Both the position numbers and the translations under genes were made by a program. DNA of 38,975 bases from the NCBI GenBank assembly GCA_021812705.1, contig JAKAMT010000009.1, forward strand, positions 1 to 38,975, written 5' to 3'. Each line of letters begins with the position of its first letter. The stretch's first letter is position 1. Below are positions 3,011 to 6,166 of the stretch, piece after piece. Source of the stretch: Bacteroidota bacterium (GTDB lineage: Bacteria; Bacteroidota; Ignavibacteria; Ignavibacteriales; Melioribacteraceae). Below the pieces are notes generated by a model. It worked only from the letters and a program-made list of their open reading frames with translations. It was not told the DNA's origin and ran no database searches.

Positions 3011-3398
3011 TTTTACCTCAAATTTTATTTTAGTATTTGCATTAAACTTCACTATGTAAACCCAACAAAATGTTTAGATAGTAATAGTTCACGCTTTATA
3101 AGATGGAAGAGAAAATCAGGAATACAGAAGAAAGTATCAATACCTCGACAAGCTTGCGATGTAAAAAGTATTTCGAAAAGCTCAGTAAAAGAAAACCAGA
3201 TATTCAAAAAATGGAAGGGAAGAAAGGTCATGTATCCCCCTAAATTCTACATATCAATTTCAATTACAACTTATCGATTATAGAGTTCCGTGTCAAGATA
3301 AATTATATGGTACAACTGTTTCGGTGAAATAAAATTAAATCAGCCCCAAAATTATATCGATATTATATATTGAATTGAGATAAGCGGCGAGAAAAATA

Positions 3399-3455
3399 GA
3401 CCGCACTGGTTTTCAGTTCTATGTTTACCACAACAAGGCGAAAACCAATACGGTC
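3399..3455 (-). terminator. Probable terminator of the dcw operon
   Basis: Minus-strand RNA 5' GACCGUAUUGGUUUUC-(25 nt)-GAAAACCAGUGCGGUC pairs over 16 positions including 2 G-U wobbles, then UAUUUUUCUC. Confidence 0.65.
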
Positions 3456-3481
3456 TGTGAAGAAAAGAAAAAACTGCGCTC

Positions 3482-3571
3482 CTATTTGAAAGTCCTGAGT
3501 ATTTTAATTGCCTTATGTGAAAAGAGAATCACAAAAAGGAACATTGCGCATAATAAGAGCAAACCATTCAT
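3482..3571 (-). CDS. 29-aa single-transmembrane microprotein downstream of ftsZ
   Basis: MNGLLLLCAMFLFVILFSHKAIKILRTFK*; upstream TAAGGAGGTATT-ATG is a strong Shine-Dalgarno; 34 nt after ftsZ stop; before the 3399-3455 hairpin. Not in the supplied ORF track (short). Confidence 0.6.
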   Translation of the reverse strand: MNGLLLLCAMFLFVILFSHKAIKILRTFK

Positions 3572-3605
3572 AATACCTCCTTACGAATATTTCGCCCTGC
3601 TTTTT

Positions 3606-4898
3606 TTAATCCATAATTTTTCTTAGGAACGAAGAACTGTCCTCTTCATCCCTTGTTTTGTTTGAGTAATAGTCGTTCTCTGAATAATCGTTGTGCTCGG
3701 TTTTAAATCCTGCTTCTATTGTTCCCTGCTCGAACAGATCGAATGTTGTGGTCTTCATTCTTTTAATAGTCGGAACCGTTAGATCTGCATTGTTATCTAG
3801 ATTGAACTCGCCTTTTTTAATTGAGAAGCCGGAGTAGTTTGCAACTTTTTTCTCCTGCTGTTTTCTTTCAGCTTTTTCCGTTTTCAGATTGCTGATCGGG
3901 TTGGCGCTTGCTTTAGTTTCAAATCCGGTCGCAATAACTGTATAAGAAACATATTCATTCATTTGATCTTTGATTACCGTGCCGAAGATTACATTCGCTT
4001 CTTCACCTGCCGCTTCGAAGATCACATTGTTGCCGGCTTCAACTTCCTGCATAGTCATATTGGTTGGACCGGTAACATTGAGAAGAATATTTTTTGCACC
4101 TTTGATAGAAACACCTTCGAGCAGAGGCGATGAGATTGCTTTCTGCGCCGCTTCAACAGAGCGGTTTTCTCCGCTTGCAATTCCGCATCCCATCAATGCC
4201 TGTCCGCTGTCTCTCATTACAGTGCGCACATCGGCAAAGTCGACATTAATAATACCTTTAACTGTAATAATATCGGCGATACCTCTCGTTGCCTCGTACA
4301 AAATTTCATTCGGCTTGTTGAATGCGGCTTTAGCTGCCGTGGCAGTATCTATAATGCTCAGGATTCTTCCGTTAGGAATCACAATCAAACTGTCGACGTA
4401 TTGTTTCAGGTCGGCAATTCCTTCATCGGCATTTTTCATTCTTTGTTTGCCTTCCCATCCGAACGGTTTTGTAACGATACCTATAACAAGCGCGCCGAGA
4501 CTTTTAGCGATTGATGCAACTATTGGAGCCGCGCCTGTTCCGGTTCCGCCGCCCATTCCGGATGTAACGAACACCATATCGGCACCTTCGAGGTGGCGTG
4601 TGATTTTTTCTCTGTCTTCTTCTGCAGATTTTCTTCCAACGTTAGGATCTGCTCCGGCACCGAGCCCGCGCGTAACATTTGTCCCGATCTGAATTTTTTG
4701 AGTGGCTGAGCTTTCTTCAAGAACCTGAGCGTCTGTGTTGACCGCAATAAATTCAACGCCGGTTAATCCGCGTTCTATCATGCTGTCGATTGCATTACAT
4801 CCTCCCCCGCCGACACCTACTACTTTAATCTGTGCGGACATAGGGCGCTGGGTTTCCAGAGTGATAAAGCGCGGACGTTTTTCTGAACTAGTTGACAT
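3606..4898 (-). CDS. ftsZ: Cell division protein FtsZ
   Basis: Tubulin signature GGGTGTGAAPIVA, N-terminal IKVVGVGGGGCNAID; C-terminal SSFLRKIMD peptide; upstream AAGGAGG. Confidence 0.98.
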   Translation of the reverse strand: MSTSSEKRPRFITLETQRPMSAQIKVVGVGGGGCNAIDSMIERGLTGVEFIAVNTDAQVLEESSATQKIQIGTNVTRGLGAGADPNVGRKSAEEDREKITRHLEGADMVFVTSGMGGGTGTGAAPIVASIAKSLGALVIGIVTKPFGWEGKQRMKNADEGIADLKQYVDSLIVIPNGRILSIIDTATAAKAAFNKPNEILYEATRGIADIITVKGIINVDFADVRTVMRDSGQALMGCGIASGENRSVEAAQKAISSPLLEGVSIKGAKNILLNVTGPTNMTMQEVEAGNNVIFEAAGEEANVIFGTVIKDQMNEYVSYTVIATGFETKASANPISNLKTEKAERKQQEKKVANYSGFSIKKGEFNLDNNADLTVPTIKRMKTTTFDLFEQGTIEAGFKTEHNDYSENDYYSNKTRDEEDSSSFLRKIMD

Positions 4899-4924
4899 GA
4901 TTCCTCCTTGTTGTGGTATTTGAT

Positions 4925-6166
4925 TTATAGTTTATCAAAGAATTCTTGTATCTTTTTAAAAGTTTTGCCGAGATTTAATTTTCTCTCGCTTCCGGTTGTT
5001 TTTACTGTTGTAAAATTTTCCGATTTGCTTCCTGGAATTCCCCGCAATAATCCTGCTACGGTCGCAAATTCCGGACTTTCAACTTCGCTCGAGAGGCCTG
5101 ATCCGAGATCGAGCGGAACGCCGATTCTAGCCGGCATTCCAAATACTTCTTCCGCTAATTCAGTGCATCCTCTTAGAAGGGATCCGCCGCCAGTAAGAAC
5201 TACGCCGGCTTTGATCTTATTTTTAAATCCCGAATGGCGCAGTTCGTTATCGATGATCGAGAAGAGTTCGCGCATTCTTACGCTTATGATTTGGGTGAGA
5301 AGTGAAAGCGGAATCTTCACATTTCCTCTTCCTCCAACTCCCTTGATGTAAATTTCTTCTTCCCGGATTATTGCGTGCTCAGTCGCGTAACCGTGTTCTC
5401 TCTTTAATGTTTCGGCGTCGGCTGTTACAATTCCCAGCGTTTCCCTGATATCATTAGTAACCTGATTGCCTGCTACGCCGACCACTTTTGTATGTTTTAT
5501 TGATCTTCTGTGATAGATTGCTATATCCGTTGTGCCGCCTCCTATATCGATAAGAAGAACGCCCAGATCTTTTTCATTTTCTTCCAGAACGGCAAAACTC
5601 GATGCGATGGGCTGCAGCACATAATCTTTTACGAAGAATCCTGCGCGCTCCACGGATTTTTTAATATTCTGTATTGCCGGGATGGAAGCGAGCACCACAT
5701 GATTAACCGCTTCAAGACGTGAGCCGCACATTCCAATCGGATCTTCTATTCCGCCCTGATGATCAACAGAATATTCTTCCGGAATTATGTGAAGTATCTG
5801 CCGGTCGGATGGAATTCTGATTGTCTGCACATCCGCGCGGAGTCTGTCCAGGTCCATCTGGTTAATCTCTTTTTCAGGATTGCTGATTGTAACATAATTT
5901 CTGTGGCGGAGGCTTGTTATATGCTCGCCTGCCACGCCTACATTCACTTCTTTGATTTGTAGGCCCGCTCTGTTGCTGGCGATGTTCATCGCTTCTGTAA
6001 TCGCATCGGCGGTTTTAGAAATGTTTGCAACCAGACCGCGCGTTAAACCTTCCGAGGGGGCTACACCGAATCCTAAAATGTTCAGACTATTTTCCGCTTG
6101 CTCCGCTATTACGGCGCACACTTTTGTGGTGCCTAGATCGAGTCCCGCTATTATATTTTTCTTCAT
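4925..6166 (-). CDS. ftsA: Cell division protein FtsA
   Basis: Actin-like AGLDLGTTKVCAVIAE, LLIDIGGGTTDIAIY; C-terminal amphipathic FKKIQEFFDKL; position in dcw cluster. Confidence 0.97.
   Translation of the reverse strand: MKKNIIAGLDLGTTKVCAVIAEQAENSLNILGFGVAPSEGLTRGLVANISKTADAITEAMNIASNRAGLQIKEVNVGVAGEHITSLRHRNYVTISNPEKEINQMDLDRLRADVQTIRIPSDRQILHIIPEEYSVDHQGGIEDPIGMCGSRLEAVNHVVLASIPAIQNIKKSVERAGFFVKDYVLQPIASSFAVLEENEKDLGVLLIDIGGGTTDIAIYHRRSIKHTKVVGVAGNQVTNDIRETLGIVTADAETLKREHGYATEHAIIREEEIYIKGVGGRGNVKIPLSLLTQIISVRMRELFSIIDNELRHSGFKNKIKAGVVLTGGGSLLRGCTELAEEVFGMPARIGVPLDLGSGLSSEVESPEFATVAGLLRGIPGSKSENFTTVKTTGSERKLNLGKTFKKIQEFFDKL

Follow-up and report, generated by a model that had tools for sequence, protein, structure and literature searches.

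A terminator-like hairpin after ftsZ in a family of Ignavibacteria presents a loop complementary to the ftsZ ribosome-binding site: putative self-control of ftsZ by its own 3' end

Self-regulation through the 3'UTR is already known for the bacterial genes opp, car and icaR. In Vibrio cholerae, OppZ and CarZ are autoregulatory sRNAs derived from 3'UTRs, which pair with their own mRNA and inhibit its translation (PMC7398697). Another example has been described in Staphylococcus aureus, where a UCCCCUG motif in the long 3'UTR of icaR, an mRNA subject to RNase III cleavage, pairs with the Shine-Dalgarno (SD) region of the same mRNA and interferes with initiation (PMC3868564). Control by RNA at the ribosome-binding site (RBS) of ftsZ is also known, and is exerted by RNAs from elsewhere (DicF in E. 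coli, DinR in Klebsiella) or by an antisense RNA (StfZ in E. coli), all of which repress ftsZ (PMC5069750, PMC10907235, PMC9628754). DicF and DinR occupy the RBS/SD of ftsZ (PMC10907235); DicF originates from a prophage operon, DinR from the 3' end of dinI and StfZ from the strand opposite ftsZ (PMC5069750, PMC10907235, PMC9628754). The level of FtsZ sets the timing of division, and how cells keep it steady is an old question. To our knowledge, RNA regulation has been little studied in the phylum of the organism analysed here.

The locus described here lies in a window of 38,975 nt, the whole stretch of DNA that was analysed, which is contig C36 of a 3.16-Mb MAG. The genomes compared with it were mostly MAGs, and the family referred to below as f1 is Melioribacteraceae-like, with a taxonomy that is partly inferred. 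In the window, ftsZ (3606..4898, minus strand) encodes 430 aa with Tubulin/FtsZ_C matches and a TIGR00065 match at E 5e-124, and its upstream neighbour is ftsA (4925..6166, minus strand; Pfam and NCBIfam match), the gap between the two genes containing the RBS site of ftsZ.

Downstream of ftsZ, an RNA element at 3390..3458 (minus strand; 70-bit match to covariance model R1) starts 24 nt past a small ORF and folds with z = -5.9. A 5' arm (3440..3456) and a 3' arm (3398..3414), both on the minus strand and defined by folding and stem covariation, enclose a loop at about 3415-3439 that holds the motif CCUUGUUGUGGU (3427..3438, minus strand), and the stem is followed by a U-rich tail, AUUUUUCU (3390..3397, minus strand; sequence and folding), as a terminator-like 3' end. 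An earlier note on this DNA had placed a likely terminator after the small ORF, where a hairpin with a U-run is indeed found; the position was right, while the antisense match of the loop to the ftsZ RBS had been overlooked.

Across the family, it is this hairpin, made up of a long stem whose sequence varies, the loop motif and the U-run, that is constant after ftsZ, and not the small ORF. In about 62 of 70 f1 genomes, the hairpin comes immediately downstream of ftsZ and on its strand, and its 12-nt loop motif is almost invariant. In the stem, 83% of cells are paired versus at most 60% in slid controls, with two-sided changes in 11 of the 17 pairs. The element is single copy in the window's own genome, where another contig (G000:C93:5893-5924) ends in 32 nt identical to the 3' half of the hairpin (window 3400-3431), which points to an assembly break or a strain variant inside the hairpin. 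A search of Rfam returned chance matches only (E 0.58 and 1.7, far below the gathering threshold). The covariance model gave strong matches in the majority of f1 genomes as well as in five of the sister family f3, and no credible match elsewhere among 391 genomes of the class. Two further matches were rejected, one from the class-wide search in G445, which is palindromic and occurs on both strands, and one in a genome of family f2, G098, whose contig is identical to the window. This contig, G098:C92 (L152), matches the window over the end of ftsZ, the small ORF and the hairpin, and is probably contamination by the window organism. A different arrangement is seen in G035 (L035), where a gene of about 128 codons, presumably for a protein resembling a four-helix bundle, is inserted between ftsZ and the hairpin and is preceded by a terminator-like hairpin; the loop and the RBS still match.

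The target of the loop is found at 4906..4917 (minus strand), where ACCACAACAAGG is the exact reverse complement of the loop motif and occupies nt -19 to -8 before the ftsZ ATG, so that its AAGG begins the Shine-Dalgarno AAGGAGG. About 1.3 kb separates this site from the loop. When the family was searched with the reverse complement of the loop, CCACAACAAGG, almost every genome had it in two places, the hairpin and the site just before the ftsZ start, the remaining matches being scattered inside unrelated genes. With the loops aligned by the covariance model, into which the RBS did not enter, and sites anchored on the SD or the exact motif, 784 of 792 positions were paired in 66 genomes. In the 12 variant genomes, 136 of 144 positions were paired (three are broken) versus a permuted mean of 121.0 and a maximum of 132, and none of 100,000 permutations was as good; the permutations ignore the tree, and relatedness is not fully removed from this figure, with the variant genomes spread over at least nine genera. 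There are 14 two-sided compensatory changes in nine genera and at seven positions (G031 and G032, of one genus, share one), which include C-G to U-A, C-G to A-U, A-U to G-C, A-U to C-G and A-U to U-A. Examples of such loop and RBS pairs are CCUUAUUAUGG (as DNA CCTTATTATGG) with CCATAATAAGG in G012, CCUCGUUUUGG (as DNA CCTCGTTTTGG) with CCAAAACGAGG in G044 and, written as DNA, TGGTTATGGTT with AACCATAACCA in G048 and TTGTGGAA with TTCCACAA in G036. This covariation brings the predicted loop-RBS pairing close to proven.

The two partners also come and go together. Both are absent in G010, G045, G076, G077 and G040, while in G058 the loop is lost and the RBS site has decayed; genomes of sister family f3 have both. 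The loop motif was found at 0 of 23 outgroup loci, where the longest matches were like those of shuffled controls. In some genomes the complementarity extends to 14-15 nt and reaches into GGAG. The RBS site is predicted to be mostly unpaired, in keeping with the pairing; less favourable to it is a small inner hairpin into which part of the loop may fold (median unpaired probability 0.52).

The two sites form an inverted repeat of 12-13 bp around ftsZ, which could act at the level of DNA, as a pair of protein-binding sites or as recombination sites, with gene conversion or a common binding specificity keeping the copies alike; the same change made in both would then also appear compensatory. 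However, one copy always coincides exactly with the RBS, the other always forms part of a hairpin loop, with RNA-type covariation in the stem, G-U pairs occur at the edges of the duplex (at -1 in G006, at -6 in G074 and at -13 in 15 genomes), and no further copies of the motif recur at conserved places; on this account a DNA-level role was judged very unlikely. It is likewise very improbable that the element is an ordinary intrinsic terminator, as its stem and U-run and its standing as the sole such element after ftsZ would allow, with a loop kept by a bound protein such as an RNA chaperone or nuclease and a secondary match to the RBS, since a protein site would not require loop variants to track the RBS of their own genome base by base, as they do in the permutation test, and no such loops are found at the other genes screened in 400 kb of G049.

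The complementarity is also specific to ftsZ. In 400 kb of G049 (contig of 3,300,414 bp), ftsZ had the longest complementarity between RBS and 3' region among 311 genes, its 13 nt being the sole outlier and the next gene, with 10 nt, being AT-rich; among 53 ORFs of the window, ftsZ again had 13 nt and the next ORF 9. Other genomic matches to the loop complement were rejected as trans targets, as they lie inside unrelated genes and are near control counts, and no conserved regulon for the loop was found at the 11-nt level in the family genomes. A separate observation concerns two genomes of family f2, G154 (L167) and G155 (L223), in which AATACCTCCGT, immediately past the ftsZ stop, shares 11 nt of complementarity with the ftsZ SD, ACGGAGGTATT. 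As matches of 11-12 nt also arise in shuffled controls, and the two genomes hardly differ in this region, this is a possible independent analogue, though one not above chance.

Taken together, it is likely that the 3' end of the ftsZ mRNA, in cis or as a released sRNA, pairs with the ftsZ RBS and represses translation. In the proposed mechanism, the ftsZ transcript would end in the long stem-loop and U-run, whose loop would present CCUUGUUGUGGU, antisense to the gene's own RBS. After completion of the transcript, the loop, whether still attached to the message or released as a stable 3' fragment, would form 12-15 bp with nt -19 to -8, and the duplex, in covering the first half of the Shine-Dalgarno, would block binding of the 30S subunit and lower FtsZ synthesis, a post-transcriptional negative feedback. 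This model is backed by sequence evolution, namely by conservation and covariation of the hairpin, covariation of the loop with the RBS, their joint gain or loss and their specificity; what we infer beyond this is the production of the RNA, its repressive effect and its action in cis or in trans.

That ftsZ probably lowers its own translation is thus a statement whose sign is drawn from position and from analogy. Occlusion of initiation would be expected from a duplex that falls within the 30S footprint and engages the AAGG of the SD, and repression by analogy with bacterial RNAs studied at comparable sites (the icaR 3'UTR, OppZ/CarZ, DicF and DinR), which repress. Only the AAGG of AAGGAGG is always covered, so that the effect may be weak modulation or even activation. 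An activating role, in which pairing would join the 5' and 3' ends (as a circular mRNA or for ribosome recycling) or protect the message, would fit with the GGAGG core often being left partly free and has a counterpart in some RNA viruses, where 5'-3' pairing can stimulate translation (discussed in PMC3868564). We consider it unlikely, given that the duplex at nt -19 to -8 is inside the expected 30S footprint and includes part of the SD, and that the studied bacterial analogues which pair with the SD/RBS repress.

Within the repressive model, the cis form of the loop would act only once the 3' end has been transcribed, and against it stands that, by the time this end is synthesised about 1.3 kb past the RBS, translation is already under way. 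In the trans form, a 3' fragment would provide feedback on all ftsZ mRNAs. It may be, and we offer this tentatively, that a stable 3' RNA bearing the loop arises from each ftsZ transcript once it is complete and acts in trans in this way. If so, the whole family would count its ftsZ transcripts, and FtsZ would be held constant by an RNA-only homeostat located in the terminator.

The small ORF between ftsZ and the hairpin (3482..3571, minus strand) was the subject of the earlier note, which had described it as an unannotated single-TM ORF with an SD, 34 nt past ftsZ, and this description was borne out. Its product, MNGLLLLCAMFLFVILFSHKAIKILRTFK, begins at an ATG and has 29 aa and a TM segment by hydropathy, the SD TAAGGAGG lies at 3576..3583 (minus strand), and no Pfam or NCBIfam model matches it. 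When the 250-300 nt downstream of ftsZ were read across the family, homologues with an SD were found to occupy the same place after ftsZ in nine relatives (six of genus g1 and three of genus g7), where the consensus is M(N/D)GLILLGAMLLFIALFTTKAIRIIKYLKSDSE. The length of 29 aa holds for the window and not for these relatives, which have 33 aa; the window copy ends in ...RTFK where the others run on to ...KYLKSDSE, and is thus four C-terminal residues shorter. The Ka/Ks analysis proposed in the note was run and gave a dN/dS of about 0.05-0.2 in close pairs, which signifies purifying selection. Substitutions at codon positions 1/2/3 number 339/129/559, so that position 2 is protected and position 3 free, and in nearly all copies neither of the other two frames is open. 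The small ORF is a real coding gene under purifying selection. In the g1 relatives and G013 (loci L006-L010, L013 and L019), a hairpin that begins immediately past the ftsZ stop, CCUUUAU...AUAAAGG, sequesters its SD, an arrangement suggesting that its translation is coupled to that of ftsZ; in the window copy, no such hairpin was found between the ftsZ stop and the ORF.

The position after ftsZ, whose conservation in relatives the note had set as a test, is kept in these g1 and g7 homologues, and most of the family has no such ORF there. Of about 70 readable family genomes, only 10 have the ORF behind ftsZ; it is missing there even in the close g1 genomes G019, G025, G020 and G024 and in nearly all other genera, and its distribution on the FtsZ tree would take at least four to five gains or losses. 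A search with an HMM built from the ORF found relatives away from ftsZ in G020, G025, G026, G029, G017 and G024, and weaker ones elsewhere; several of these dispersed genes adjoin recN and an MBL-fold gene or precede a gene for a putative exported protein of about 149 aa. The dispersed family (L207-L218, including G020:C48:125862, G025:C157:67297, G017:C3:47981 and G024:C380:9513) consists of single-TM proteins of about 31-33 aa, M(N/E)GWIILxxxLLFxxLFxHKAIxIxKExKSN, is related to the post-ftsZ ORF and likewise matches no Pfam or NCBIfam model. In family f2, other ORFs of 42-71 aa with a hydrophobic segment, mostly with an SD, lie directly after ftsZ at L155, L156, L157, L159 and L161.

With patchy presence and homologues at other loci, linkage of the small ORF to ftsZ or the dcw cluster is not conserved, and the suggestion that it is a dcw or divisome component was not supported. 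That the microprotein is itself the functional point of the locus, as a small divisome or FtsZ-membrane modulator co-expressed with ftsZ, would accord with its purifying selection, SD, TM segment and suggested coupling, and yet is improbable for a gene that most of the family lacks after ftsZ, that varies even within a genus and that has family members at unrelated loci. The ORF belongs to a small family of single-TM microproteins that looks mobile, and between ftsZ and the hairpin it is a genuine gene, though a facultative passenger.

The FtsZ message thus seems to bring along, within its terminator, an antisense to itself, which matched mutations have preserved across a family of Ignavibacteria and its sister family, and it offers a clear-cut case in which autoregulation by a 3' end can be tested. 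A literature search, with many subscription papers outside its reach, uncovered no account of ftsZ being controlled from its own 3' end, and none of the loop motif. Terminator loops can be regulatory seeds, and screening for loop-RBS complementarity could reveal more of them.

Among known elements, intrinsic terminators share with the post-ftsZ element a stem (here of about 17 bp) and a U-run directly after the last gene of an operon. The loops of ordinary terminators are short and unconserved, whereas this one is large (about 15-35 nt) and has an almost invariant 12-nt motif. Like DicF, DinR and StfZ, it would supply an antisense RNA directed at ftsZ; these come from another locus or from the opposite strand, as opposed to the post-ftsZ element, which is on the ftsZ strand directly downstream and is the gene's own 3' end. 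As in icaR, a 3' motif is complementary to the SD region of the same mRNA, but the motif is CCUUGUUGUGGU and not UCCCCUG, and with unrelated sequences the two are analogous and not homologous; here, moreover, the hairpin loop ends an essential cell-division gene and compensatory evolution stands behind the pairing. OppZ and CarZ resemble it in that they, too, are located on the same strand as the gene or operon they regulate and within its 3'UTR (a placement seen for the ftsZ element in about 62 of 70 genomes), and in pairing with their own mRNA, which for the ftsZ loop is predicted at the RBS from compensatory covariation. They differ in that their genes are opp and car, the host is a gammaproteobacterium, and both processing by RNase E and dependence on Hfq are known, while the element described here concerns ftsZ in Ignavibacteria, with its putative seed in the apical loop of a terminator-like hairpin and with family-wide conservation and covariation.
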